64,000 bases of DNA, taken from contig CAIIXF020000007.1 in NCBI GenBank assembly GCA_903813345.2, positions 27,019,564 through 27,083,563 on the forward strand, written 5' to 3'. This DNA comes from Owenia fusiformis. Taxonomy: Eukaryota; Annelida; Polychaeta; Sabellida; Oweniidae. The notes beneath the pieces are model-generated. The model did no database searches. It saw only the letters and a program-made list of their open reading frames with translations, and was not told the origin of the DNA. Every line of letters starts with the position of its first letter. Position 1 is the stretch's first letter. Both the position numbers and the translations under genes were made by a program. Below are positions 3,603 through 63,310 of this stretch, piece after piece.

Positions 3603-6600
3603 GTGAGTGGCATGCTTGAAATCTCAGCTTGAAAACTCAGAACATTAGACCAAGAAGAATGAAGTAAAACATGCTTCGAGTAATTTGAGCAAAACATGTT
3701 TCAGGGAGCTTGAGTAAAACATGTTTCAGAGAGCTTTAGTAAAACTCAAACACAGTTCAGCAAGCTAGATTAAAATAAGCTTCAAGGAGCTTGAGTAAAA
3801 CTTGCTTCAGGGAGCTTGAGTGAAACTTGCTTCAGGGAGCTTGAGTAAAACTTGCTTTAGAGAGCTTGAGTAAATAGCCTCCAGGGAGCTTCAGTAAAAC
3901 AAAAACGCCAGTTAAGCTCGAGTAAAGCTTGCTTCAGAGAGCTTGAGTAAGACGTGCCTCAGAGAGCTTAAGAAAAATTTGCTTCAAAGAGCTTGAATAA
4001 AATTAGCTTTTGGGAGATTAGAGTAAAACTTGCCTCAGAGAGATTGAGTTAATTTGCCTCAAGGAGTTTGTAGACTATAGAAATTGTCTGTGCATTGCAA
4101 TAATATTTTGATTAAATCGTTTGAGGTCTAACCCATCACAGCTGATCTTCTTAATGTGATTAGCATTCGTGCATTTCTTCATTGAATTGCTAAATAGAGG
4201 GAAGTTAATGAATTGACTTTATTGATCTTGTACATAATTGTGTTACCTTTCATTTCTCTCTTATAGATGTCATGTTAGGTGATACCATCTAGAGATAAAA
4301 TTGAGAATTAAGGATGATTGGATATTATTGTTAGTTTATTTTTTGGTTTGGCATTTCAGTCAATATAGCCTTTCATCAAGCTCTTAGCTTCCCAAAGAGT
4401 AAAACATTCTTCAGGGAGCTTGAGTTAACATCTTTCAGGGAGCTTCAGTAAAAATACTTTAGGACACTTGAGTAAACATCTTTCAGGGAGCTTGAGTAAA
4501 TATGCTTCAGGGAGTTTGTATAAACTATATATAAAAATTGTCTGTGCATTGCATTGATATTTTGATTTAATTGTTTGAGTCTAACCCATCACAGCTGATT
4601 TTCTTAATATGATCATCTTTCGTGAATTTCATGATTGAATTGTTAAATAGAGGGAAGTTAATGTATTGACTTTATTGATCTTTTATATAATTGTGTTACC
4701 TGTTTCATTTCTCTCTTATAGATGTCAGGGTAGGTGATACCATCTAGAGATACCATCTAGAATTAAGAATGGTTTAATGTTATTGTTGGTTTATTTTTTA
4801 CATTTCAATCAATGTACAATGTAGTCTTCCATCAAGCTTCTTGCTTCCCAAGTTTCTCCCTTACATAAGTCTGTGGGAGGGGGGGGGGGCATAAATTAAC
4901 CGGACACCTGATACAAGAATACTATTAACCTCTTGACTACCCAGAATGACGGACCAGAGGAACGAGAAAATCCGTCACAAAATTGTTCACAAAAATTGCT
5001 CTTATTTGAACAATTTTCATCCAATTTACACAAAAATTGTTTTAAAACGTGTAGAAACGATCTCTGCCATCTAATTTTACTAAGTTGAGCATCAAAAGTT
5101 GTAAAGCTATGTAGTAAAATGTCAAAAGGTGGCAAAAAGGAAAAATCCTCTGGTTTCAACCAATTTTAGAGCCTGGGATTCAAGAGGTTAATGTACACTG
5201 GTTGCTGGTTGACAATGGGCCCACGGTTTTCATTATCCGTCTTCTTTTTTGAAGGGGCCAAAGTGCAAAAAGGGCTGGACTGATTAAGTAGGGGGAGGGG
5301 GGGGGGGTGTCCAGAGGCTTGATTCAAGATTATGAAGTATCATGTAATTCAGACATTTCTGCGTTTGAAATAATGACATGTCAGGAAATTATTGATTTTG
5401 AACTTTCATAGTATCTCATTAAAAACTCATTAGTTAATAGAAAATAGAATTCAATATATTAGGACATACTCTTTATGTATATGCTCTTAATGAAGTCAAT
5501 TAATGATATTCATATAACAGCACACAATTTCTTATTAAAAACTATTTTTACTCATATTTTATCTGTTTTATGGCTGTTGTCTCATATCTGGGATGTATAT
5601 AAAATACATGTATGCCAATCCCAGCTCATGGGAATACTTTAACTTTATGTGTTTTTTTGTCTGCAATCTTACACCCTCTGAATGTGAACATAGCAAGTTA
5701 AAATATATATCTTCCTCCAGCTGGTCCCAAAATGTTCACATTAATTTTATTTATTTATTTATTTCATGATAATATAACAATGGAATGTACAAAGCATGTG
5801 CACTCGACACCCTTAGTAATTGGGCGTATCAGTGCATATATCAAAAATTATTGCAGAGCAATCACAAAACATATAATATATAACAGTATAACATACATAA
5901 TCAGTGTGAAAGGGGGAGGGGGGACAGGGTAGTGTATTAGACATTACATTCAATTCAATTTATTATTCAATTTTAGTTTTCATAAATATAAATTTACAAG
6001 AGATATGAAAAGGACACATATAGTAATGTCCAAAAACCAGAATTACACATAACGATTTTAATCGTTTATTTGTATTAATTTATTGTTTATGACTGTATTC
6101 AGCCAGCCATTGGCAAAGTGGTTGAATTATCCATCTAAGTGTTTCATTTTATGAGCTTTTTATTGTCATATATCAATTTCTGTGTTTGTATATTGTTAAT
6201 TAATACCAAGGTCCCCTGGTTTACTACAATGCCATGACTGTTAGTTATCCTAAAATAGAGAATATATTTTTTATAATTATAAGGTTTATATCATTGCCCT
6301 TTCAGTTGAATATGCCAATATGAAGCAAATGCAGTAAAACATGTCTAAGTGGAACACCTTTGGTACCTCTAAAAAGTGTTCCACTTTGGATGTGTCCCAC
6401 TTATAGAGGTTCATTATTTTGACAATAAGTCAGTCTGAAGTGTATTCAGTAACCATGGGCGTAGCGCTATTTTTCTAGGAAGTACGCCACCACCACGGGA
6501 ACAAGAGTTGAGTGAATCAAAAATCGAGCATTCAGGGGGTCTGGGGGTTATTTTGGAATTTGGTTGTATTTGGAGCGAATTTGCAACCATCTGGTATGCC

Positions 6601-46745: not shown

Positions 46746-46910
46746 TTAAGGTATCCTTTTTACTGATGGGTGGAAGAAATTCACTTCCGGCTTTCCATAT
46801 CCCAATATTTCTCTTAGCTCCTTAGGGAGACAGTAGTACGATCTTCTCACACAGTCCTCACAAATACACTTGCCTTCTTTGTATGCCAACTCAAATGGCG
46901 ATTTCATAGA
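46746..46910 (-). CDS. VWA protein copy 1, exon 5 (C-terminus)
   Basis: Acceptor cttttttcag, phase 0, stop TAA at 46748-46746. 54 residues: SMKSPFELAYKEGKCICEDC then VRRSYYCLPKELREILGYGK and a tail ending VKRIP. Four cysteines (C-x-C-x2-C-x6-C). Confidence 0.93.
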   Translation of the reverse strand, partial: SMKSPFELAYKEGKCICEDCVRRSYYCLPKELREILGYGKPEVNFFHPSVKRIP

Positions 46911-49900
46911 CTGAAAAAAGGAAATTTCATCTGCATTTGTGAGACTTTAAATATCGTACGAGAATTTTTACCGGAAGGTAGGCCATCTTGTTACAAAGAC
47001 ACGGCGTCTTTGTATTATGATATCTGACACTCAGACTTGTCTTTTCATCGAATAGTTTCATTATCTGCGTTTCTCAAATCGCACTTCTAACGAGTAGCCA
47101 CTCCTAGAGTACAATTACCCCCCCCTTGTTCTTCATAAACCAAGTGGTTTGTGCCACATACGTTTATACTTACTTTCTCTTACACAGTTATCCTATGTGT
47201 CCCTTTGTAAACCCGTTAAGATGCTATTAAAACAAAATATCTGACTAAGCTTGTATTCGAGAATGAAACTAAAGTCTGTCAGCTAACGGATTAACCTACT
47301 ATTTTATGGGAAACTCATTTAAAAATGAATAGTACCTGCCACTATTCCAGTCATAATTAGATGAGTTAGCCATAAAAAAAGTATGTTATACCGTCAGCCG
47401 GCAGGTGAATTCGCGAATGCTACACAAGCCATCCAATTATTACGTGACAAGTATTTTGACCAATGGATTATTCAAATGAATGAAAAATCGAGCTACCTTT
47501 GAAGTGGGGTCCATAAACATGAAGGGACAGCCACAGCATCGTCTGTTGGAAGGATGGCACGCTGACATAGTGATGGGACAAGTTCTCTGGAAGGACGCAA
47601 ACTTCTTGCAGGGGTCCAGGTCGACCACAGGTGGTTCGGTTATTGGAGGATCTTAAAAGTGAATAAACTACTGTGTTGAATAGTATCCTGGGCAGCCACT
47701 AGAAATAGTGTTAATGTATATCTGTGGCTCTCCTTTCTTGAAGTTAACTATATGTCCCATTTTAAAGCTTAGTGGAATATCTTATGACGTACTAGTTTTC
47801 TTCATATTATGCTATCTCTATTTCTAAAGCTAAAGTTTGCAATATTTGTACTGTGGGATAGACAGCCTTAACTATCCCTTGGAATACACAACCATTTGAT
47901 AAAGGGGGGCCCCGATAAAGAGGGGCTCTGATTGTTATAGAAAGGATAACCAGAGACATGGGCCCGGATGAAAATCGCGCCAGAGTCCCTTAAGAAAACA
48001 TTAACTTAAGGACTCCGAGAATCTGATCGGACAAGCTTCGATTTTGACTTAATGTTCCCGGACCTCAGAGATACAATATAATTTTCAGTTATAATCCCAG
48101 TGTAAAAGGGTAGAAGGGCCTATCAAATTATGGTACTACTCTTCATATAAATCAATGGTCCTACTCTTCATTGATTTATATGGCGACCTCTTCCCTTATT
48201 ATCTTATACACAATCAGGGCCAGAAAGGGCCGTTTAGAAAGGGAACCATAATCCCTGGGGTTGGAGGGGGGGGGGGAGGGGGGGAGGGGGGGGGGTTAAA
48301 GTCACATTCATCCTTTACTTACCACAGAAACCTGCCAGGATTTCTTCTAAGGAATTAAGCAATTCGACGAAACCTTTGTTTATAAGGAAATTTTCTGTAG
48401 GCTGACTGGCGATCGCAGAGAATTCAGCAGACCCGTCTTTGTGTTTAGCGTTTGGTAAACTAACCACGAATACCTTAGCTCCAGTCTCTTCTTTTAGCGC
48501 CCTCGCTTCTTTTTTAGTGTCCCCGGCTTTGGATGCAGGAAACGTTGCACCATCAGTGATAACCAGTACGACCTTTTGTATCGGAGGATTCAAAATTCCC
48601 ATTGGATCCCGAAGACCCTTAGCGCTTGTAAGTTGCAATGTTTTAGCTGACCTGAGAGCTAAATCTGTTCTAGTACCACATCTCGGCCTAAAGTCATTTT
48701 CAGGGTGAATATCCATTTTCGTGATGTGGTCAACAATAGGACCTGATGAGGAGTAGGTATTCAAAAAGAATTCGTCATAGACGAACTTATCAAATGTTAC
48801 AAGGCCCAACTGAAATGAATTAAATACATTTTTTCCATGACAAACACTAAAATACTATTTGCTCGTTCATTCAAAAACCACCCGACCACTTTAAGCTTGA
48901 GCTCTTGATGTCGCATACAATACAAAACAAGCAAACAACAATAATAAAAACTCTACTTGTGCTTTCTCCGGTGAAGGACCAATATCCAAGCGATCGGCAA
49001 AGTTTATCATGAATTCATGCACGATTGTCTTGTTTGTCGGAGAGATGCTGCAAGATATATCCAGAATAACGACAATATCAACACCACACTCCACTAAAAA
49101 GAAAACATAAGTGCCAAAGTTATTCCTAAAATAAATGTTAAACCTGTAAGTTATTCTAATAGTGTTTTTTAACATTCTTGTCTGAACCATGGGCTTTCAA
49201 TTAGCGTTGAGTTGAAAGCCATGTCTGAACCGATTGACGAAAAATAAGCATATTTAAAAAAAACGCAACCCAAAGAAATCGCTAATTATGTTCATATTTT
49301 CAGGAAATAAAGAAGAGACTGTGTATGAACAGCTCCTGTAAATGGTTAGTTGTAAAACATGATGCCTTGGACACCTGCTCAAAAGACAGTTGTACGAGGA
49401 AAATACGAAAAACGCAGTCAGGGGTGACAGCAACCGCGAGAAAATTAAATAACTTCCTAACCATAGTGTTTTGGCTAGATTCAAATTTGGCACAAATCAT
49501 CTTCATTTATTGTATTTATTGAATGAGGATAATTTGTGCCAAATCTGAAGTGCCAAAACACCATGGTTAGAAAGTTATTTGGTTTTATTGCTGTGGCAGT
49601 CACCTCTGACTGCGTTTTCATATTTTCCTAGTACAACTGTCATTTGAGCAGGTGTCCAAGGCATCATGTTTTATAACTTACTGACAACAGTAAAAATGAA
49701 CATAATTGAATTCATATTTTCCAAGATATATATATATATATAGTGATTTTCCATTCACGTTTTTCATATTTTGCTAGTACAACTGTCTTTTGAGAAAGTG
49801 TCCAAGATAACATGTTTTACAACTAACTAACAACAGGGGCTATACATACACAGTCTCTTCTTTCTTTCCTGAAAATAGGAACATAATTGGATTAGTATTT

Positions 49901-51785
49901 TCCAAGATATTGCGATTTCTTTGGGTTGCGTTTTTTGAACACCCTGTAAGTGTTAACCCTCGGTGATCGGAAAAGGGGAGTAGGCAATTTCTGCAAGAAA
50001 ATTCAACAAATCTGGAATATTTATTCTTTTAAGAAAAAGTCTACTATTGAATTGCTCAATGGATCTTATATATGTTCATTACAGGTCATGTAGACCATTT
50101 TTGCTTGATTTATAGCAAAAACATTGACTTATGCACGTTAGTGGCCATGCGCCTTTTTAACTTACGGGACGCGTACGTGGGCGTGTAGAATTATTGTCCT
50201 CTAGGCTTCGGTTCCCTTCTTCGTAATATTTACTTGCCGGATAGAGTGTAAAGGTATAAAAGTCACCAGATAAAGTTTAAAAATATGTTTTTATCATTCA
50301 TTTACTATTGTCATGACTTATTTTAGAAATTTAAAAAAAATATATATATTTCTCAAATATTCAAATTTCCCGCTATTTTCAAATAAAAGTTAGAACTTTT
50401 CTAATTACCAATTTCCCATTGACTTCCATACAAATGCTTTGCTAGGTATGAAATACTATACAGTGCAAAACGCATTCTTTACTTTGCTCGATGCAACAGA
50501 AGATACGAATTACAATATGAAAGGAAGTGAGCTTTGTCACTTCAAAAGTTTCTCGGGTTTTCTTGGATATTCAAAAATACTGCAGTCAGAAGATATTTCA
50601 CGTTTACAGTAAGCTTAGTGCCCTTTGGTATCAAAACAGGAGGTTTGATTTTCACTAAGGTGATGAATGCAAATTATCTTTTTAACACGACCAATGCAAA
50701 GATTGAACAAAGGACACTTTATTTCAATAATAAAATGTCATGCCACTTTAATGTTTTAGCATATTAAAACTATTTTGTAACCTCAGTGATATCATCGTGA
50801 CATCACTCAGGTGGCAAAAACTTTTTGAAAAAATTAAAACATTTTTTCTATGTCAATCCTTTCTAAATATGTTAAACTTTAAAAATAAACCAACGTTGAT
50901 TGTCTAATCAGATTATTAAAGGACGACGTTTTAAATATGATTGTATTTTCGGTTTTTATGAGAACTAATATTTTGAAACGCATTTTTCAATTTTCATGCA
51001 TCGATGAGTTCATTTCTCGCTTATTCGTGAAGCAGTTTTCTTAATTATTCGGCAAAATACGTGAGTATGAATGCTATATACATTGGTGTGAAGTATCAGT
51101 TATTAAAATATACGTGTGGCCTCTTAAAATTAGTTTTAAATATAATTCATGATTTTTTGAACAATAAGTCCTTCAAAAATCAAAAATGAACACATATCAC
51201 ACTTTGATAACATTGGGTAAGACTACATACTCGTATAACAATATACACCAAAGTGGTTTAAACTTTATATGAGACCTTTAACACGGGTGTTAAAACACGA
51301 ATATACCATCATGAACACATGCTTTGAGGATCCGCGTTGTTTGAACCTACCGCCGAGCACACTTATACATAAGACCCGTTACACAGTCATGATACCGCCG
51401 GGCAAGCTCACTGCATCATCGGGTCTGCTTTACCCCCGTGTTAAAGGAAAATTGTATGTCCCTGGGGAAAAACTAGTGAGAGTAGACAGTAGACAGTAAT
51501 CACACGTTCTCTAAAAACGTTTAGCTAAACCTCCCGGATAATTTACGAATAATTGAAACTTACACTGGATTTTCTGGGAGTCTACCACCATTGGGCCCAG
51601 TACCATGATACAACCCAACGCCAACAACTTCAACATCTTGACACTTCTAAATAAAAATAACTATATGAATACCTTTAAAACACACTTCACTCATTATTCG
51701 AGATGAAAATCATTAAGTTTATTGTATGTGTAATCCGAAATGAAAAGTATAATAACGTACCTGTTTTCGATTCTGTCTATGTATG
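46746..51785 (-). CDS. Secreted VWA-domain protein with Cys-rich C-terminus, copy 1 (whole gene)
   Basis: Five coding exons on the minus strand (51636-51564, 49093-48957, 48809-48323, 47651-47497, 46910-46746) sum to 1017 nt, 338 residues. Residues 1-20 are a signal peptide (MLKLLALGCIMVLGPMVVDS, cleavage near Gln21). Residues 27-231 are a von Willebrand factor A domain with a complete MIDAS: D36-x-S38-x-S40 in DISCS, T116 in GTRTD, D156 in VITDG. The last 106 residues hold ten cysteines in a pattern I cannot assign: C-x9-C-x6-C-x6-CC-x-C, then C-x-C-x2-C-x6-C. Likely an extracellular matrix or adhesion/biomineral-type protein; the role is inference. It has a close tandem paralogue at 55922-62775. 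Confidence 0.92.
47497..47651 (-). CDS. VWA protein copy 1, exon 4 (Cys-rich)
   Basis: Acceptor cacttttaag, donor TCAAAG|gtagct. The first two bases complete Asp. It encodes DPPITEPPVVDLDPC, then KKFASFQRTCPITMSACHPS and NRRCCGCPFMFMDPTSK. Six cysteines. Over its last ~120 bp it differs from copy 2 at a single, synonymous position. Confidence 0.94.
48099..48262. mobile_element. Second, degraded copy of the ACCGGTGTAAAA MITE
   Basis: GTGTAAAAGGG start, then GATTTATATGGCGACCTC, CAGGGCCAGAAAGGGCCG, CCATAATCCCTGGGG in the same order as 53353-53526. The right end is replaced by the poly-G tract. Confidence 0.7.
48245..48296 (+). repeat. Long poly-G tract (poly-C in the VWA1 intron)
   Basis: Almost pure G over ~35 bp, about 28 bp past the donor of VWA copy 1 exon 3 on the gene's own strand, where it reads as poly-C. 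Absent from copy 2. Confidence 0.9.
48323..48809 (-). CDS. VWA protein copy 1, exon 3 (main VWA exon)
   Basis: Acceptor aattcatttcag, donor TGTG|gtaagt. 487 nt, phase 0 in, one base out. Residues 71-232: LGLVTFDKFVYDEFF, the MIDAS Thr in CGTRTDLALRSAK, and IQKVVLVITDGATFP with the MIDAS Asp; it ends EILAGFCG. About 85% identical to copy 2 (roughly 25 differences in 162 residues). Confidence 0.95.
48957..49093 (-). CDS. VWA protein copy 1, exon 2
   Basis: Acceptor gttttctttttag, donor GCACAA|gtagag. 137 nt. Begins LECGVDIVVILDISCSISPT with the DxSxS metal motif; continues NKTIVHEFMINFADRLDIGP, SPEKAQ. The junction to exon 3 restores the VWA strand (AQ|LGLVTF). Confidence 0.94.
49256..49944. 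mobile_element. Fold-back element in VWA1 intron 1
   Basis: The left arm from AAAAACGCAACCCAAAGAAA (about 49259) to about 49500 is complemented by sequence ending TTTCTTTGGGTTGCGTTTTT at about 49917-49938. The right side is internally duplicated (GTACAACTGTCWTTTGAG occurs twice), with a TA microsatellite at 49725-49741. It ends GAACACCCTGTA, a mariner-like terminus missing on the left. Confidence 0.75.
50411..50455 (-). repeat. Empty-site relative of the 15168-16659 insertion
   Basis: On the minus strand it reads TTTCATACCTAGCAAAGCAT, TTGTATGGAAGTCAATGGGA. This matches the two flanks of the 1.5-kb transposon joined at a single ATACC. Confidence 0.75.
51275..51447. mobile_element. 173-bp MITE with CCTTTAACACGGG ends
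   Basis: CCTTTAACACGGG at 51275-51287 and its complement at 51435-51447. GC-rich noncoding interior. Lies in VWA1 intron 1 close to exon 1. Confidence 0.65.
51564..51646 (-). CDS. VWA protein copy 1, ATG exon (signal peptide)
   Basis: ATG at 51636-51634; coding 51636-51564 (73 nt, 24 residues plus one base), donor CAGT|gtaagt. An acceptor tatttag lies 10 nt upstream, giving a 10-nt UTR piece (51637-51646, AAGTGTCAAG). Copy 2 has the same arrangement (AAGTGTTAAT), supporting a spliced 5' UTR. The peptide has a basic residue, a hydrophobic core and a Ser-Gln cleavage region. Confidence 0.9.
51761..51785 (-). other. VWA1 noncoding first exon (5' UTR)
   Basis: Ends ATCGAAAACAG|gtacgt (donor at 51760). 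The start is set from the TATA box, so it is approximate. The following intron is only 114 bp (51760-51647). Confidence 0.6.
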
Positions 51786-51810
51786 TGGGTCGAGATAAGA
51801 TGACCGATAC

Positions 51811-51818
51811 TATTTATA
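51811..51818 (-). promoter_or_regulatory. TATA box of VWA copy 1
   Basis: TATAAATA on the minus strand, about 50 bp upstream of the first donor. The equivalent box in copy 2 is at 62801-62808. Confidence 0.65.
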
Positions 51819-53352
51819 CTATATATAACTGTCCTATTAATATATGCAGTCTTCTGTCTCTTTCCCCGGTGACGACAACGTATAAACTAAACTCAATTTG
51901 GATTTGGGTGAAATCATCAAATAGAAAACAAATAAATTTTAGAATTTTAAACGTTTTCTGTCTTGATATATTAGAAATATAAAAATTAGTATGCAAATGT
52001 ATGCATATTCGTCAATGTTATACAATATGGACCCTAGTTTCATTTCTGATTTATTAAAATGAAATTTTAATCCAATACACATACAATTTTCATCTTTCGA
52101 TATTTTCAAGGGCATCTATTCAATGGTCTAGAGGATTGTAGATGATAAAATTCATTAATCTCGATTTGAAACAGTAAATCTTCAGTCAATACATAACATA
52201 TATATTGATAAAACAAATAAGCTTCTGATGTTGCATCTTCTTACGTGTAGTCGATGAAATGTAATATTTCTAACTCTCTCTTTTCAATTTGCAAAAATAG
52301 TCGAGTGTGATGTTTTTCTTTTGATTTAAAATCTTAAAATCTTATCACTTCTACAAAACATAGTATGCAAACACAAGAGGTAACTAACAAGTCAGAAAAA
52401 ATAAAATCCGCAATAAACCTGAGACCATCATTTTATGTTAGTCTCAGCTCAAACTATGATTTAAGTCACAAAAAACAATGTTACACCCTTCCCCTCTTGA
52501 CAACTTCAAGGAACCATTGTCAAAATACAAAAAATTATGACACAAGATCAAAAAACACACGCAAGAGTTCACATATTCTGCCATCAAAAAGTCATTGGTT
52601 CAAGTATACCACATAGAACACCTCAACTGACAAAATCCAATAGTCTTAGTCGTCGAAAGGTCAACATTCATTCGCAAAGCCGCAGCCATAGGCCACATAA
52701 CACAATAATTCACAATGGACGCAGGGACTGTAATTTATTAATTGCATTGTCCAAAATTGTTCATATTATTCCAAAAATATCGTTAAATATCAAAACGGTT
52801 GAAGAATCATTTCATAATGTACACATTTTGGAACTTGACGGTTTCAAAAGATAGTTTCAGTCTTCTGAAAGTGGATTATCTAACAATGTTGGTTAATGAA
52901 TATAGTCTTTAGAATGTAAATGCCATCAAAAATACTAATAAAACGATAGCATATTAACCTTGAAGGACATGCCCTTTGACCCCAAGCGATATTAAGTCTT
53001 ACTTAAAATGAATTCAAAGAATATATAGTTAACATATTGGTACATCTAAGGTTAACCATGATGAAACTTTTGTAACATACAAAAAATATAGGACATTTAA
53101 GGATTTAATTGGATGTATTAGTAGGGACATCATATTCTAGACAACAAGTAATACGATGAACAAGAACAGTATGTGAATAAGAAAAACGCCAAAAATCGAG
53201 ATGAATCGAGACTTATTCCCAGTTCCCGCGATAGGATAAGTTCTAATCTATCAGTCAGAAAACATTTCCGTGTTTGGTTAGAAAGAGAATTTCTAGAGAT
53301 GGCGGTAAGAGTTGACGGTGATCGAGTATGTTGAGCAGAATAGTTTTCTAAA

Positions 53353-53526
53353 ACCGGTGTAAAAGGGGAGGTGGTCCTGTCAAATGTTGGTACTACTCTC
53401 TATTGATTTATATGGTGACCTAATCACAATTATTTTCCTTATTATTTATACACAGTCAGGGCCAGTAAGGGCCGCAAGGAAAGGGGACCATAATCCCCAG
53501 GGGACCAAAGTTTATTTTACACCGGT
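53353..53526. mobile_element. MITE with ACCGGTGTAAAA ends
   Basis: ACCGGTGTAA at 53353-53362 and TTACACCGGT at 53517-53526 are inverted. The interior (TATTGATTTATATGG, CAGGGCCAGTAAGGGCCG) is shared with a second, truncated copy at about 48099-48262 in VWA1 intron 3. Confidence 0.7.
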
Positions 53527-54369
53527 AACTCTACTATGGTAGCCCTCTCCAGGTTCATTTATCTTAAAATCCATATGGTCACCGAATCATTATCTTGTAA
53601 TGGCAAGCTAGACGAGACAAAATTTTCTATCAACGCTTCGAATAATATTTTGTTAATATCTGGCGTGTTAACTTATATCATAGTTTGTTATTTCACATCA
53701 AGATAAATAATGATAAAGTAGGAATATGCTTAAATCGATTAAAACATCACAACGACGCGTTATATACGAAAACTAACAAGTGAGACTTTGCGCAAACGAA
53801 GGTGGTATGCAAGAGACGTAATATGTCAGTCACCGCTAAAGCTCTCTGGGGCTTTCCTTCTCTTGTATAAAGTAAGACATTTTGAGCCAAAGTAAGCATC
53901 TTTTAATTATCATCCCGGGATTATCATGCTTCATAGATTCCTGCCAACAAATAAGCAGCTGTGTAGCTAGGAAGAAAAACGACGAAGAGAAAAATATTTC
54001 CAAGCGACGGCGCTGCCTCATCATGGAGCTCTTCAAAAATTATTTCCATTATTCAGATTTTAAATGGCGGCTATGTAACTTAGTCAGAAAAATACGAATG
54101 TAAATTATTTGTTTGGATAACGAACGTAGACACCAATAAAATACGAGCTTATTTAGTTCGATGGCAATAGAACATGATGATGTTACGTGCATAATTGAAT
54201 AAAAAATTGATAAAAGTTATAGATCTTTGAATTTTCAACTCATCATACATGAATATTTCTCAAAGAATGTCTTAGCTATGATATAGCCACCATGCCTTTG
54301 TTTGAATTGAGTTGTATCAAAAAGTAAAAGTCTTTTCTGGGTCACCGCGAATGGCATGATTTCCTCGAG

Positions 54370-54690
54370 TCTCTTCAGTTGCAGGGCAACCATACTGGGA
54401 CCGATTCGTGTCGTTCCACTACTGCCCTTGGTGGGGGCCCGCTACCATACTGTATGACTCCCGGAGTCTACCAAAGCACGTTAGTGGAGGAACCAACCAC
54501 AGTCTCACAATCTGTCTCCGACAAAAGCGGTCAGAGAACCAACCCAAGCCAAGGGCCAGTATACGGTTGGACCTTCGGACCGGGTGTCCGTAGTGACAAT
54601 GATCAACAACTCCGTACCTGGGGCTCGAACGCGGGACCTCCGTATCCCCCGGTACATTCTACCACAGTCTAACCCGCTCGGCCAAACTGC
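54370..54690 (-). mobile_element. tRNA-derived SINE
   Basis: On the minus strand a tRNA-like head carries box A TGGCCGAGCGGGTTAGACTG (54684-54665) and box B GGTCCCGCGTTCGAGCCCC (54638-54620), the spacing of a class II tRNA (Ser/Leu-like). It continues without a tRNA 3' end into a GC-rich body reaching about 54370. GC content is far above its surroundings. Confidence 0.75.
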
Positions 54691-55324
54691 TCAGGTGTCT
54701 AAACTGCTCAAAAAAGTAATATTTGTTCTACTATTTTGCTTGAATGAACCAGAACTTATAACAATCTTATTTTCTAAACCATTTGTTTTGAATTACTAGC
54801 TAATTACAAACAACGACAATCACCACGCGCAAATGCATGCGTAATTGGCTACTTCGCGTAATTGCGCCTTCTGAGATCACATATGCAACAGGGGAACAAA
54901 TGCGAATTCGATTATTAAAACATTTTAATTTTGAATCAATCAATTTCAGCGTTCATAAGCATTAGGGTTTGTTTCAGTCGGGGATTTATAATATAAGAAC
55001 TCATAAAAAGTTCATTCTAATTGTGCAGTAACCACAACGCGACATTTTTAGAATAATCGTGTACATCGTTTAAAAAATTCATAGATCATCCGATATTTTA
55101 GATCAATGTTTGTCACATGTACTTGCTTTTGAAATTCGCCTTCTTGAAAACTTACTGACTTGATAATAGACAAATGCAAAATTATAAAAATGCAAGTACA
55201 CGTCAAAATCTAGCCCTTTGGCCTCGATAAGATATACTTGTTAAAATGTGCATAAGCCTCGTATCATTCGAGGGCACAGTTACATTGTGTTTGGGTTAAC
55301 GATATGTGGTTATTTATGAGACGT

Positions 55325-55735
55325 TTGTAGTCTTGGTATTCCTTTAGAGTTTGATTCATTGGCATTGTAGTCTTGTCATTATTCTAGAATTAAATTTGCT
55401 GGCATTGATAGTCTTGTCATTATTCTAGAGTTTAAGTCATTGGCATTGGTAGTCTTGTCATTATTCTAGAGTTTAAGTCATTGGCATTGGTAGTCTTGTC
55501 ATTATTCTAGAGTTTAAGTCATTGGCATTGGTAGTCTTGTCATTATTCTAGAGTTTAAGTCATTGGCATTGGTAGTCTTGTCATTATTCTAGAGTTTAAG
55601 TCATTGGCATTGGTAGTCTTGTCATTATTCCAGAGTTTAAGTCATTGGCATTGGTAGTCTTGTCATTATTCTAGAGTTTAAGTCATTGGCATTGGTAGTC
55701 TTGTCATTAAAATATTCTAGAGTTGAATTCAAAAG
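55325..55735 (+). repeat. 41-bp minisatellite
   Basis: About nine to ten copies of TAGTCTTGTCATTATTCTAG plus AGTTTAAGTCATTGGCATTGG, the central ones nearly identical. Confidence 0.95.
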
Positions 55736-55893
55736 GAAGAACACTAGAGTCATACTTTAGGACTTGACGATAATCATGCCAAAGGATGCGTCGATCAAAA
55801 TTCCGGGTTCTAAGTTATTAAGGTAAAACAACTCCTACTAAGTGTGCAAACATAATAATAATACACTTCTTGTTTCACTACAATACAGTTCAG

Positions 55894-55899
55894 TTTATT
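55894..55899 (-). terminator. Polyadenylation signal AATAAA of VWA copy 2
   Basis: AATAAA on the minus strand, 22 bp past the stop codon of VWA copy 2. The short distance makes it plausible, not certain. Confidence 0.4.
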
Positions 55900-55921
55900 A
55901 CAAATATTTATGTACAATATC

Positions 55922-56089
55922 CTAAGGTTTCATCCTTTTTACGGATGGGTGGAAATAATTCACTTCCGGTTTTCCATATCCCAATATATCTCTTAGTTCC
56001 TTAGGGAGACAGTAGTACGATCTTCTCACACATTCCTCACAAATACACTTGCCTTCTTTGTATGCCAACTCAAATGGTGTTTTCATAGA
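55922..56089 (-). CDS. VWA protein copy 2, exon 5 (C-terminus)
   Basis: Acceptor gtctattctag, stop TAG at 55924-55922. 55 residues, SMKTPFELAYKEGKCICEEC, VRRSYYCLPKELRDILGYGK, tail ending VKRMKP. Conservative differences from copy 1. Confidence 0.93.
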   Translation of the reverse strand, partial: SMKTPFELAYKEGKCICEECVRRSYYCLPKELRDILGYGKPEVNYFHPSVKRMKP

Positions 56090-59000
56090 CTAGAATAGAC
56101 AAAATATACTCTGAACATTTTTAACAGATGAATGGATATATTAACCCTGATCTAGATATTGTGGCATTGAAATGCCTTTGTCGTTTTTTCTTTCATTCAT
56201 TCATTTTATACAATATTGTATAAAATAATCTTTTTAACATTATGCATAACTGTAATAAATAATACAATAGATAATTTATAAAACTGTCAAGTAAGATTGT
56301 TAAAATCATATAAATGATGCATGCTGTATTAAGTGTTAACTCGATGAATGAACTTGTTTCTTTTTGTGTTTTTGTCCAAAATGTTTTGCTACGTGTGAAA
56401 AGAGTCCAGTCCAAAAAGGTTTTCGTGCCATAATGAATATTTTCATTACTTTGGTCAGATTTGTCAACATATATACCTTAATATCGACGGACACGGGTGT
56501 TACAATAAGCCCTTTTAGCCTAAGCTAATTCCATTTATAGATGGCAGTCATGTGATAAAAATTCAGGAAATGATAACATAGAAGGTATGGGGATTCTCTA
56601 GATTTTTCACCCTTTTCTTATGATTCTTTGAAAAAATTATTTTTATTTTAAAAAATTCTTGGGCCATAGGTCATGATAAGATTGTTATCTATTTAAAGAC
56701 ATATCTTTTCCAACTGTTATATAACTGGAAAATGACTAATTGGTCAAGGGTCACTACAGGGCCATACATTACATCTACTTTCTTCTTAGTATTTCTTCTG
56801 AAAGTACAAGATATCTAACATCTATAATTACATTTTGTAGTATTCGTTAATAAAAATGTCTGGAGAAAAAACTTTAGAAACATTTTCAATGATGTCAAAT
56901 ATAAGTGTAAGTTGGATCAGTTTCTGAGTCTGCGAATAATTTATTTGGGATTAGTTATAAAACTATGTCTGAATGTAAACTCTCAAATCCTGCATCAAAT
57001 ATCTGAATAGTCTCTAACTATCTAGTTAACCTTTTATCCTGTATCAGTATGTGGACAATAGTAAACATTGTAATTCAAGCTGCACTTAAAACAAGCAGTA
57101 TCTTACTGGTGGCTATATAAACTTATTGACCCCAGGTCATTTTGGTGATTTAAGCTGACCAACATCAAGCCAAATATTTTAGACAAAATAGCCAATATTC
57201 ATCTTTATTTTCCATTATTTATGTTGTTTTAAAAGACTAAAAAACTTCATACCAATGATATATAAGATCTTACCTAAAGATCTGATGATTTTCTGAATGA
57301 ATGAGGAAACAGAAATGGTAGCATTATGATGTTAAAATCATAGTATAAAGTGTTATGTTTTACATGTTGGTTCAATGGGGAACTGCTTTAGGCCTAAGAT
57401 TCTTTTCCTGAAAATGGGCTAGACATCTATTGGCTGTTTATAGAGTATTTTCAACTATTTAGCAAGGCTAAACTCCTGTATTGTGACACCCACGGACGAC
57501 CACCCTCAACGGTTATCTCTATATTTTATTAGTTCTACTTCTACTCCCCATGTCCCAACTATTTGAAATGATTTTTGAAATGAATATTCACGTATATGAT
57601 CTACCTTTGAAGTGGGGTCCATAAACATGAAGGGACAGCCACAGCATCGTCTGTTGGAGGGATGGCACGCTGACATAGTGATGGGACAAGTTCTCTGGAA
57701 GGACGCAAACTTCTTGCAGGGGTCCGTGTCGTTCTTTGGTGGCTCGGTTATTGGAGGATCTTGAAAACAATAATATCTCGTTACTGTTTTATATAGAGAT
57801 AACCAAAATATTTAAAAAGGCCCGGGTGAGCTTTAATGTCCTGTTTTAGAGTCCATTTTCTTTCAATTGAAAATGGATTCTAGCAATACTATCCCACATG
57901 AATGTACTTGTTGAGATTCGATCAACTTGAGTTTTAGAGAAAATGAAGATTCCAGCAAGGGTGCATTGATTTAACATGGGAATACAATTGATTTTACCAT
58001 CATATATTTCATGTTTTGGCGTCTTCACTGTATAATGTCAAAGAAGAGAGTCAGAGAAATTGAATGCAAGTTGAGTTAAATTTAAAAATGGATAAAATCG
58101 GACAAAGATAAATCAAGAGAGATATACTCACCGCAGAAGCCTCCCAAGATGTCTTCCAGGGAAATAAGCAATTCGTCGAAACCTTTCTGGATGAGGAAAT
58201 CATCGGTAGGCTGACTGGCGATGGCAGAGAATTCAGCAGTACCATCTTTATTGTTAGCGTTTGGTAAACTAACCACGAATACCTTAGCTCCCGTGTCTTG
58301 TTTGAGCGCCCTTGCTTCTTTTTTGGTATCCGGGGCTTTCGATGGCGGAAACGTTGCGCCGTCGGTAATAACCAGTACGACCTTTTGTATCGGAGGATTC
58401 TTTATTCCCAATGGATCTCGAAGACCCTTAGCACTTGTGAGATGTAATGTTTTAGCTGATCTAAGGGCTAAATCTGTTCTAGTGCCACATCTAGGCCTGT
58501 TGTCATTGTCAGGGTGAATATCCATATTTGTGATATGATTCGCGATTTGACTTGACGATTTGTACGTATTCAAGAAGAATTCGTCGTAGACAAACTTATC
58601 AAATGTAACGAGGCCAAGCTAAAAGTAATGAATATAGCAACTTTAGTACAAGCAGACACATATACAGCCAATTAAATTTCCTCGGTTAATCCAAAACGTC
58701 AATCAATTGAATATATCACATTCAAATGTCACAAGATCAACTTTCAAATTTCATCATCTTATAAATATGTCATGTCATGTTCACGTTCGCGTACATATAA
58801 AGACATGTATCTCAACCTCCCTAATATGTGAGTAAAACGAGCAACCAATATCAATAAAAATCTTATCAACCATACTTGTGCTTTCTCCGGCGAAGGTCCG
58901 ATATCCAAGGCATTTGCAAAGCCAACCATGAACTCATGCACGATTGTCTTATTTGGCGGAGTGATACTACAGGATATATCCAAAATAACGACAATATCAA

Positions 59001-62000
59001 CACCACATTCCACTAAAAAGAAAACATAATACTTAGGCAAAGTAGATCCTCAAAGTGCACTCCTTAATGAAAAAAGGATGGTGCCATTTAAGCAAATGTT
59101 CCAATATAACATTGGAAAGCCGAGAGTGTCAATATCAACACCACACTCCACTAAAAAGAAAACATAAGTAGAACAAAATAGACGAATTTGAAGCATGAAT
59201 AAGGAGTTTAAGCTTACATACAAAATCGAAACGCCAGCTTATACTTATGACCAATCGCCCATACAAATGAATCGCTTAAATATTTTCCATTCACGTTTAG
59301 GTTGTGAAAAACATTGCAAGCTTAAACTCCCCATTCTCTTGCCTAAAGTCAAACTGATTAAGTGCAAGTATCTAGTCTAATTATAGTTTTATGTAATTTG
59401 CATTCTAAACTTACATTCTATTTTCTGGCCATATACTACTGGGCCCAGTGCTAATATACACCCAAGTGCTATCAGCTTCAGCATATTAACACTTCTAAAT
59501 AAAATTACAAAAATATAAAATATACAGGGCTGGACTATACTATTATAAAACAGTTATTATGTCACCACCACATGTGGTGACATATTGTTATAGTCTCCAA
59601 CTTTTTTGTGGCGGCGGTTGGTGTTCGGCCTTTGGGGTTCGGCGGTTGGTGTTTGGGGAGTGTAACTAATGGCAGATGATGAAATTGTGCATGTTTGAAA
59701 TACCTTGTTTATATTTAATACACGACACAATATACCATTTAAAGAAGGCTCGGATTTCTGTTGTTAGTATTAACTGGTCCACACCTGGTTATAAAGACGT
59801 TGCGTCTTTAGGATGAACTTCCGGAGGAAAATTTTATTTTTATCATTTTCAGCAAGAAGGAGGTCGACTTTTAGCCAAATATTTTACCCGTACGTTAATA
59901 GTAACATCTGGTTACTGAAGAGCGAATAAATCTCGGGTGTATTCATACATGGGTCTAATAATCGAATGAGAATTCCTCACTTCAGCAACCAGGACGTTAA
60001 TAGGCTATAAAACAATTGCAACGCAACCAAGACGTTATGCATTTCATCAGATAACGTCCTGGTTGCCAAAGCGAGGGACTCTCACTCGATTTTTGGAGCT
60101 GCTGGGTGTATTTGCTCGCAACTGACTAGCTTTTCCGAAAGGTAATGTTACTATTCACATACTGGTAGAATATATTAGTTTACTACTCGACCTCCTTCTT
60201 GGTGAAAATGATGGCAAGTGATTTTAGACGGTCATATCTTTCACAATGAATACAGTGGTTTTTATTAAAACAATATGTTTTTCCTTCAAGTGCAGTACCC
60301 CTGATGATAAAAATATAAATCAAACAATTCGAAAAATTATGAATAGGGACCCCATGTCAACATTTTTTTTCAAAATATTGAATCTATTTACCCAAAAGAG
60401 GATCTTCTTTTTCTGATTTTTATTGCATGGAAACATTATTCAACAAGGAGTCTAAGACATGTTCAAAAATAGAATGGTATTGAAAGTCTAGTTTTGAAGA
60501 TATCAATTTTCGATGACCAAAATTATGCTGAAAACAATAGATAGCACGAGTTTTCCCTATGGGAAAATGATATGGGATATGTGGTTTTTAACTTTAACTC
60601 ATTTCAATACCCATCCCCTAATCAGAAATTGTTAATATAGTGTAGAGGAGACTTTCGATATGTTTAAATTGAGAAAAACAAGATCCTCTTTTTAGAAAAT
60701 GAGCCTAACATTTTTGAAAAAGTGCCCTTATCCATAATTTTTCAGAGAGTTGGATTGATATTTTACTATCATTGGGACTTCACTTGAAATAAAATATATT
60801 GTTTTAATAAAAGCTACTGTATTTATGGCCAGAAAGTACTCATGGTGAAAGATATGACGGTCTAAAATCACTTGCCATACTGCACGTGGTCTTTTCATGA
60901 ATAAGAAAAAGACATATTTTGAAAAACGGTGATACATAATGTTCAATGATCAATCAAAATGGTATATTCAGACAATTGTAAACATAACCCGAATAAAATA
61001 CATGTACCATAAATCAACTCTGTGTACATCGATTCTGAATATCTAATTTACATCTATTAATGCCTATGATATAAGTTATATGACTAATCACGTATAGTGA
61101 AACATGTTTAGAAATATAAATGTGGTGTTTTCCCAGAATACAGTCATAACGATTTCAAAGAGGAATTCCGTACAAGTTACCCTACCCTTCATTACTTTAA
61201 TCATAAAATCATTAACATATCATGCCAAAACCTTTGTTCCATTTACTCGACACGAAATATAATGTTTTTATGAATTTAAACTAAACTATTAATAGCGACA
61301 GGATGTATAGTAGTATTTAGCCATGAATCATGCAAGCACAATTAAGAAGATTAAAAGAGATATAGATGAGGTTGAGAGTGAGTGAAAAATGTCGCAATTA
61401 ACAATATTTTGCTTTCATCATACCATGTCATGCCCATTTTTCAAATTCATCATTCCCGACTTTGTTTCATGATAGTCCTTCGATTTTTAAGTTATTTAAA
61501 AAATAATTGATTTTTTAAGGGAATTTTTGAAGTTTTGAACCTTTCTGCATCTTGAATTTTCAACAACTTCAATAATTGCTCATTATCTCAATCCTCTTTT
61601 CATTATGGAGAATTAGGATTGTACAGGAAATATTATGGTTTCTAAAGAGATTGGTTACAATATTTCTCCCATCCGTGCTAATTATTTTAACTTTAACTAA
61701 AAATTGTACCTCAACCCCTCCTTTAAACTAAATATGTATACCAAATGTAATTTACTGGTATATATAATGATCTATTTAGTTTTAATTTCAATGATATCAG
61801 TTGGATGTTATACATTTTAGGAAGGTAAATCTCGTATCACATCCGTTTATCTTCCATCAATCTTGTTTTGAGCGTACTTTTATGCTATAATTACGTGATA
61901 TGTTTTATTATGGGATAAAAAGTCATGTCCTTTCGGCATTGTGTATGCCTGGCTATTTCCATGGACTTTCGGCCAATCTACATAGAAGATTTGTAGATCT

Positions 62001-62775
62001 GTATATAGAGATTATCCTTTGTATGGGTCAAGATATTAACAATATTAATTTCCTGCAAAATGAAAACCAACTCGGCGAAGTTCAGCCACATATAATGAAT
62101 CATCGAATTGAATCATTTGACAATCGAACTTCAAACATGTAAATCTTTTTAACGGTTTTTATAAAATAATGTGCAAATTTTCTAACACTATCTTATGGCA
62201 AATGTATTTATCTAACATGGCAGGGACTGAAAATTAAAGCAAAGTTTGGAATTCTCTACAGTAGCGCCACTTATTAAACACTTTTTGTTTTTTTCTTCTA
62301 TGGGTTCAAAATACAGAATTAAATATTTTTAATCTTACCACAGTTTTTGAAAGAAAAATTATGGGCAAACTTTTGTGATTCGAATGGGTCAACATCTAAT
62401 TCTGTTTAAGGTAATTAAAGTAAGAAAAGTTTTGATGTTGTCTTTAAGTAATTTTATGTTATCTTTGATTTAAATCGGTCGAAGAGTTCAATAATCTAAC
62501 CACATTTTTGCTAATCTTAAACATAACAACGCGAACTTTATGTCTACATTTAAATTCAAGTGCCCTCCACTTAAACAATCGAGAATTCTTCGACCGGAAG
62601 TTCCTCTCGGCAATGCTGAAACGAAGACAACATGTCTTCGTAACCAGTTGATACCCAGTGATTTAGTGATAAAACCCAGGATATAGCATCCCTCCACTCA
62701 AATTGAACTAAAATTAAAAAAAAGTAAATAATAACGTTTCACGACGTACCTGTATTTGACCCTGTGTATGTTTAT
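55922..62775 (-). CDS. Secreted VWA-domain protein with Cys-rich C-terminus, copy 2 (whole gene)
   Basis: Five coding exons (59484-59415, 59012-58876, 58618-58132, 57759-57605, 56089-55922), again 1017 nt and 338 residues, with the same phases as copy 1. Signal peptide MLKLIALGCILALGPVVYG with cleavage near Gln20; VWA domain with DISCS, GTRTD and VITDG metal-site residues intact; C-terminal ten-cysteine module. Estimated 85% identity in the main VWA exon and above 90% in the Cys-rich part. Noncoding first exon at about 62775-62750, separated by a 3255-bp intron (114 bp in copy 1). Tandem paralogue in the same orientation; both copies appear intact. Confidence 0.92.
56090..57604 (-). other. 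VWA2 intron 4, 1.5 kb
   Basis: AT-rich sequence with no recognisable gene or clear repeat. The same intron is 586 bp in copy 1. Confidence 0.6.
57605..57759 (-). CDS. VWA protein copy 2, exon 4 (Cys-rich)
   Basis: Acceptor attgttttcaag, donor TCAAAG|gtagat. DPPITEPPKNDTDPC then KKFASFQRTCPITMSACHPS. Only three residues differ from copy 1, all in the short linker before the first cysteine. Confidence 0.94.
58132..58618 (-). CDS. VWA protein copy 2, exon 3 (main VWA exon)
   Basis: Acceptor cattacttttag, donor TGCG|gtgagt. Same 487-nt length and phase as copy 1. MIDAS Thr in CGTRTDLALRSAK and Asp in VVLVITDGATFPPSK. Ends DILGGFCG. Confidence 0.95.
58876..59012 (-). CDS. VWA protein copy 2, exon 2
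   Basis: Acceptor gttttctttttag, donor GCACAA|gtatgg. LECGVDIVVILDISCSITPP then NKTIVHEFMVGFANALDIGP. DxSxS intact. Confidence 0.94.
59130..59169 (-). pseudogene. Orphan fragment of a VWA exon 2 with its acceptor
   Basis: 40 bp identical to the intron/exon 2 junction of copy 1 (ACTTATGTTTTCTTTTTAG then TGGAGTGTGGTGTTGATATTG), lying between exons 1 and 2 of copy 2. Sequence past 21 exonic bases is unrelated, so no complete exon remains. It matches copy 1 better than the adjacent copy 2 exon. Confidence 0.85.
59205..59322. repeat. Inverted repeat GGAGTTTAAGCTT
   Basis: GGAGTTTAAGCTT at about 59204-59216 is complemented by AAGCTTAAACTCC at about 59309-59321. Possible small MITE in VWA2 intron 1. 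Confidence 0.55.
59415..59494 (-). CDS. VWA protein copy 2, ATG exon (signal peptide)
   Basis: ATG at 59484-59482; coding 59484-59415 (23 residues plus one base), donor GAAT|gtaagt. A tatttag acceptor gives a 10-nt UTR piece at 59485-59494, as in copy 1. Confidence 0.9.
59558..59709 (+). repeat. Dispersed ~130-bp repeat, copy 9
   Basis: TATGTCACCACCACATGTGG, TGACATATTGTTATAGTCTC, CAACTTTTTTGTGGCGG start; ends GGCAGATGATGAAATTGTGC. The longest 5' match to the consensus; antisense to VWA2. Confidence 0.85.
59850..60206. repeat. Imperfect fold-back, block 1
   Basis: AGCAAGAAGGAGGTCGAC (about 59851) pairs with TCGACCTCCTTCTTGG (about 60187). GCAACCAGGACGTTA (about 59986) pairs with TAACGTCCTGGTTGC (about 60053). 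Confidence 0.75.
60208..60886. repeat. Imperfect 680-bp fold-back, block 2
   Basis: ATGGCAAGTGATTTTAGACG near 60210 is complemented near 60867-60885. TTTTATTAAAACAATATG near 60258 and AGAGGATCTTCTTTTTCTGA near 60398 also have complements on the right (about 60795 and 60685). Arms span most of the element. Confidence 0.8.
62750..62775 (-). other. VWA2 noncoding first exon (5' UTR)
   Basis: Ends GGGTCAAATACAG|gtacgt; aligns with the copy 1 exon (ACATACATAGACAG versus ACATACACAG). The start is estimated from the TATA box. Confidence 0.6.
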
Positions 62776-62800
62776 GTATCAAATAAAAATGGCTGGATTG

Positions 62801-62810
62801 TATTTATATA
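62801..62810 (-). promoter_or_regulatory. TATA box of VWA copy 2
   Basis: TATATAAATA on the minus strand, about 50 bp upstream of the CAG|gtacgt donor, at the same relative place as in copy 1. Confidence 0.65.
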
Positions 62811-63050
62811 TGGCTATTCAATTGATATATGGCTTCTTTTTCTTCACTTGTCACTGACCACATACCGAGGTTAACTTCAGGATTAAATCGTCATGGGTGA
62901 AACCATTTAACATAAATCAATTATATATTTATGAATGGTATCTGATACCATGGGCTTTCAATAGATTTCTATCATCAAATGGTTCAGGAGTTCTACCTTC
63001 CATTGTTACGTAGGCTAGCTTAGAAACCGAATATCCGAATTAGAGAAGAG

Positions 63051-63310
63051 TGTTTTCAACAAGATGGAGCACTTCCAAACAAAACAAGGCCCGCAAGAGA
63101 GTTCCTACAGACGCTGATCTCTTTTCATGAACACATTGAATGGCCTCCCTGTTTACCAGATTTCATGCCCCTTGACTTCTTTATCTGGGGCTATTTGAAA
63201 GATCGTATGCTCATTTCAAACCAAGAGACCTAGAACAACTTAAGGCCAACATCCGAAGAGAAATGCATTTAGCATTCCACTCCAAATGTGTTAAACAATG
63301 CAGCAGTTAG
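63051..63310 (+). pseudogene. Broken mariner-type transposase C-terminal fragment
   Basis: One frame reads CFQQDGALPNKTRPAREFLQ and then WPPCLPDFMPLDFFIWGYLK before TAG at 63231. A -1/+2 frame change recovers RDLEQLKANIRREMHLAF to the stop at 63308. The QQDGA and PD..PLDFF.WGYLK blocks carry the last two catalytic Asp positions of the Tc1/mariner DDE/D domain. The N-terminal half is missing, so it is inactive. Confidence 0.85.

Follow-up and report, generated by a model that had tools for sequence, protein, structure and literature searches.

Matrilins combine VWA with EGF and a C-terminal coiled coil. The solved VWA domains (PF00092) nearest by sequence to the genes described here are, in phmmer searches, those of collagen VI alpha-3 (E 5e-30, a value summed over many VWA repeats), PTMP1 of mussel byssus (9.9e-09) and integrin alpha-1 (3.4e-08), with which they have the fold family and the MIDAS residues DxSxS, T and D in common. 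Pif/BMSP-type shell matrix proteins join VWA to chitin-binding peritrophin-A, as described in PMC3374290. Inhibitor-cystine-knot peptides share the partial spacing C-x6-C-x6-CC with the cysteine-rich tail considered below.

We analysed a window of 64,000 nucleotides from the annelid Owenia fusiformis. Its minus strand carries two five-exon genes, copies A and B, which, with exons rebuilt from the sequence, each translate to 338 residues. Like the Pif/BMSP-type proteins they combine a signal-like peptide with VWA, and other VWAs of the same class adjoin CBM14 and TSP1 exons; unlike them, copies A and B end in the CCGC tail. Chitin-binding peritrophin-A was not found in copy A, for which Pfam gives VWA-type models only, and an EGF match is absent from the same Pfam results. 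PTMP1 shows two VWA stretches in the phmmer alignment, copy A one in Pfam. From the solved VWAs named above, copies A and B differ by extra cysteines at position 4 of DxSxS and before the loop-2 Thr, while the tail is set apart from inhibitor-cystine-knot peptides by its CC-x-C, its second half C-x-C-x2-C-x6-C and the lack of any significant match. O. fusiformis builds a sand tube and is not known to have a shell. The shell-matrix context mentioned in a first-pass annotation of this DNA is therefore the wrong setting for a tube-building annelid and was rejected. We propose, tentatively and with doubt slightly outweighing confidence, that the genes belong to a family whose secreted products serve in the extracellular matrix or in secretions, lining the tube or contributing to mucus or cuticle.

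Gene models and family members in the genome

All introns of copies A and B are GT/AG, with the same phases in both. Exon 1 (59415..59484 in copy A, 51564..51636 in copy B; all features on the minus strand) contains the start codon and the signal-like peptide and was read from translation, in copy A also from similar first exons in copies L010 and L007. The VWA domain starts in exon 2 (58876..59012 and 48957..49093) with MIDAS loop 1, which reads DISCS in copy A, and is completed by exon 3 (58132..58618 and 48323..48809), containing in copy A MIDAS loops 2 (RCGTRTD) and 3 (ITDGAT); both exons rest on translation and VWA alignment, and on Pfam in copy A. Exon 4 (57605..57759 and 47497..47651) encodes the first tail half with the CCGC module and exon 5 (55922..56089 and 46746..46910) the second tail half and the stop, each identified by translation, tail search and the alignment of the respective half. 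An extra exon 2-start fragment (59130..59169, minus strand) lies inside the first intron of copy A; its 40 bases are identical to copy B exon 2, while copy A's own exon 2 is only 93% identical to it. Beyond the first coding base of copy A at 59484, no coding sequence extending the gene to 62810 was found. The signal peptide of both copies is a hydrophobic first exon judged by eye, and we infer that the proteins, with this putative signal, are secreted. Apart from this judgement by eye, the rebuilt models agree with the initial description of two 338-residue copies with signal peptide, intact-MIDAS VWA and a tail of about 106 residues. Directly downstream of copy A lies a 41-base tandem repeat (55326-55776), and an open frame at 63024-63233 resembles, by eye, the end of a mariner-type transposase.

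The Pfam scan of copy A matched PF00092 over residues 29-212 (E 1.7e-22, 81 bits against a cut-off of 23.8), an overlapping VWA_2 match scoring under its cut-off. The MIDAS residues DxSxS, T and D are complete in copies A and B (DISCS, GTRT, ITDG) and damaged in paralogues H, C3 and C12. Splice sites are kept across copies A-J, a comparison that left out the partial copy H0: the exon 4 donor AAG|GT and exon 5 acceptor AG in 10 of 10, the exon 3 acceptor in 9 of 9 and the exon 3 donor G|GT in 8 of 9, the exception being copy I, where it was not seen. This conservation gives comparative support to the joining of exons 3, 4 and 5.

We searched the genome as 498,259,871 bases in 525 contigs, very probably those of O. 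fusiformis or a close relative of it. The two syt1 primers given for this species in PMC8111721, with the adapter trimmed, each have a single exact match there, facing each other on C11 at a distance of 32 kb, and the reversed controls have none; one of the two sites falls in a frame recognised as the end of synaptotagmin. The elav1 forward primer had no match, perhaps because it crosses an intron. With an E limit of 10, the copy A query gave at least 121 matches (of 376 candidates, 119 were scored) and the tail-only query 36, and VWA exons matched at least 156 times at E ≤ 0.001 (150 of 685 candidates scored). Copies A and B are part of a C7 cluster of seven genes, each with VWA and both halves of the tail, that share a strand and fall within about 120 kb. 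Three other tail-bearing copies, at least one of them partial, are located on C6, and others on C11 and C8; C10, C1, C7, C4 and C3 carry more distant members. The "tandem pair" of the first-pass annotation is thus real as far as neighbouring copies go and too narrow as a description of a cluster of seven with dispersed members.

A strict motif recovered 26 first and 18 second tail halves in the fetched loci, or 28 and 20 with copies A and B; with a looser motif, three more first halves (L033, L034) and one more second half (L026) came to light, for totals of 31 and 21. Two further looser-motif matches, opposite the strand of a Thr-rich repeat in L037, were dropped as chance, and C3:19159322, when read, lacked the full motif and was not counted. 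The count also leaves out C10:21206072, whose sequence was not fetched, and the weak candidates C4:31555516, C2:8021567, C7:17774654, C1:55706785, C1:25930141, C5:30575381, C12:19835916 and C10:17723564. One first tail half shares a 1,404-residue open frame with a Ser/Thr-rich (mucin-like) repeat, and in L020 and L021 a Thr-rich stretch precedes the tail. VWA queries against 20 tail-bearing or neighbouring loci matched in four (L025, L027, L028, L029), two of which (L027, L028) adjoin L015-L016. The 16 loci without a match lie around C11:25.21, C7:7.87, C7:17.77, C7:17.80, C1:6.21, C3:19.16, C10:30.76 and C4:19.84, and include the short C10 pieces L015-L018 and L020; given short flanks and long introns, the missing VWA is weak evidence at these loci, the C4 frame excepted.

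Several loci showed further peculiarities. At L037 (C5:1912500-1922400), TSP1 and chitin-binding CBM14 exons adjoin Thr-rich stretches and VWAs that have the MIDAS cysteine pair described below, a Pif-like combination. L082 (C1:37840300-37846200) contains tandem 1,885-base units with VWA exons, 97.9% and 99.5% identical in two neighbour comparisons; the spacing of matches suggests at least 11 units, perhaps one giant multi-VWA protein. In the C6 copy L008 an 85-base piece with the exon 4 end and donor is present in three direct copies (3623-3877), and the exon 5 stop is also altered.

A cysteine pair in the MIDAS loops

VWAs of the copy A/B class have one cysteine in each of MIDAS loops 1 and 2, located at the fourth position of DxSxS (DxSC) in loop 1 and two residues before the loop-2 Thr. 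Among 51 aligned VWA rows, one of which (L042) was unreadable, both cysteines occur in 27 (including L078, despite its irregular motif), neither in 23 and one alone in none. Fisher's test for their co-occurrence gives 9e-15 with kinship ignored, and the 40 contrast loci in this count were chosen from the copy A and VWA genome searches rather than at random. On a tree of the VWAs built from a 58-row alignment, the loop-1 cysteine requires four changes and the loop-2 cysteine five, with 15 rows that lack the loop-1 cysteine gapped at the loop-2 column, three rows missing the loop-1 exon and a frame error in the cutting of row C8b, the cysteine of that row being evident in a separate reading. Independent pairs number one on starred branches and four overall, too few for significance. 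The pair thus follows the tree, and with so few independent pairs coevolution is not established.

We infer a disulfide joining MIDAS loops 1 and 2 through these two residues. The pair is absent from the alignments with known VWAs, which are partial and cover the best five targets per search. We consider it possible, at a confidence a little below that for the matrix reading, that these proteins represent an undescribed class of animal VWAs, much expanded in this annelid, in which the metal face would be stapled by the loop 1-2 disulfide and part of which would carry an undescribed, mobile ten-cysteine (CCGC) domain.

Selection and proposed sequence exchange between copies

Between copies A and B, the VWA exons give dS 0.613, dN 0.088 and dN/dS 0.14, the tail dS 0.121, dN 0.046 and dN/dS 0.38, and the overall dN/dS is 0.18. 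On these coding-sequence estimates, the two copies are under purifying selection. This bears on an alternative to matrix proteins, a secreted family for immune or defence recognition in which tandem copies would diversify the ligand face of the VWA while the tail stays constant. The tandem cluster and the somewhat faster amino-acid change in the VWA would suit such a role, as would the defensive glue of a slug, described as VWA-rich in a title from the reference list of PMC7333891; the purifying selection overall, with A-B VWA dN/dS near 0.14, argues against it, and we regard it as unlikely.

The greater conservation of the tail was initially taken from the A-B pair as a sign of constrained function. 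In numbers the difference holds, with 98 of 106 residues identical in the tail and 177 of 208 in the VWA, but silent sites share the bias (Fisher 3.1e-06). At silent sites of exon 3, copy H on C6 and copy B are similarly close to copy A (0.49 and 0.63), while the copy A tail is at 0.12 from copy B versus 0.58 from copy H. The pair D-E follows the same pattern (tail dS 0.12 vs VWA 0.38, p 0.0015); tail dS is also lower in four other pairs among copies D-G, the difference not being significant for D-F, D-G, E-F, E-G and F-G. The dN/dS of the tail exceeds that of the VWA in both A-B and D-E. Since the A and B tails are alike at silent sites too, this pair is not a demonstration of constraint and the original argument fails for it. 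The simplest reading that these comparisons suggest is a recent exchange of tail exons between neighbouring copies, and the piece of copy B exon 2 in the first intron of copy A fits such exchange. The aligned A-B blocks end near exon borders, so that the silent sites may themselves be constrained.

Taken to its limit, this reading would deny the tail any special constraint, its apparent conservation being the product of exchange between neighbours, for which the low tail dS of A-B and D-E, the identical 40-base piece and the higher tail dN/dS in both pairs speak. We consider this highly improbable in view of a wider comparison. Among the 28 pairs of eight copies, which are not independent and include copy H with its decaying VWA, full-tail dN is below exon 3 dN in 26, with an unadjusted Fisher p < 0.05 in 17. 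At silent sites tail and exon 3 differ at p < 0.05 in five of the 28, the tail being lower in three and higher in two. Saturation (dS > 1 in one part) affects 19 pairs; in the remaining nine, tail dN is lower throughout, seven times at unadjusted p < 0.05, two of those seven involving copy H. For the cysteine core, dN is lower in all 28 pairs (unadjusted p < 0.05 in 26), but this test favours the tail, since neither the variable linker with which exon 4 begins nor the final nine residues of D-G were included; our conclusion rests on the full-tail test. Seven residues in the first half and six in the second are moreover invariant among distant copies in rows picked by similarity. A tail more constrained than the VWA over the eight copies is thus weakly supported, and a constrained tail function survives to this modest extent on grounds other than the A-B pair.

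The cysteine-rich tail and its proposed role

The tails of copies A and B comprise 106-107 residues with ten cysteines spread over exons 4 and 5, and the spacing reported at first pass, C-x9-C-x6-C-x6-CC-x-C followed by C-x-C-x2-C-x6-C, is present in both. In alignments with rows chosen by similarity, C25, C32, C39, C40, G41, C42 and F46 (row 1 numbering) are invariant in the 16 rows of the first half, and P5, C15, C17, C20, C27 and P29 in the 15 rows of the second.

Neither tail was matched by any Pfam model in a direct scan. Chance-level Pfam matches were obtained with the conotoxin model in 1 of 16 members (E 0.028), with YgbA_NO in 2 of 15 (best E 0.014) and with zf-CRD (E 0.062) for one partly mistyped tail query. 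NCBIfam gave no match for two tail queries and the PDB sequences none for a single tail; for two tail profiles the best PDB matches had E 0.15 and 0.36, values at which the C-x6-C-x6-CC spacing gave chance-level hits to two knottin toxins. Viral contigs scanned with the second tail half yielded 21 pattern matches, none of them confirmed as a relative, a result that does not bear on other animals. Predicted structures of the separate tail exons, with mean pLDDT of 51.0 and 49.9, are too poor to judge a fold. The earlier impression of an unrecognised tail is borne out by these searches of Pfam, NCBIfam and PDB sequences, in which matches stayed at chance level. The idea of a knottin-like tail that would act as an inhibitor or toxin-like effector on a VWA anchor deserves very little credit, since the two toxin matches and the single conotoxin match that point to it are, like every score, at chance level, the ten cysteines are divided between two exons, Thr-rich or Ser/Thr-rich stretches lie next to some members and CC-x-C is short for a cystine-knot fold.

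In the open-licence literature searched (including PMC4595640, PMC7333891, PMC3374290, PMC8111721 and PMC9977687), we found neither the CCGC tail nor the MIDAS cysteine pair described. As far as sequence can tell, the tail is a real, recurrent and unnamed cysteine-rich module on annelid VWA proteins, new in the sense of being absent from Pfam, NCBIfam and PDB sequences, and the tail-bearing VWA proteins are likely matrix or secretion proteins. In the matrix or secretion role that we favour, the protein would be secreted into matrix, mucus or cuticle, where the VWA would bind a matrix ligand via its metal ion, while the disulfide between MIDAS loops 1 and 2 would keep the binding face in a single shape. 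The tail would fold as a disulfide module that ties the protein to itself or glycoproteins; that some members have this tail joined to Thr/Pro- and Ser/Thr-rich stretches points this way.

As a newly named domain, the CCGC tail would help to annotate the matrices and secretions of worms, and the gene clusters that carry it are material for studying sequence exchange in matrix genes. Should the MIDAS disulfide prove genuine, it would offer a natural means of fixing the binding face of a VWA in a single state, which would bear on the switching of integrin-type domains.
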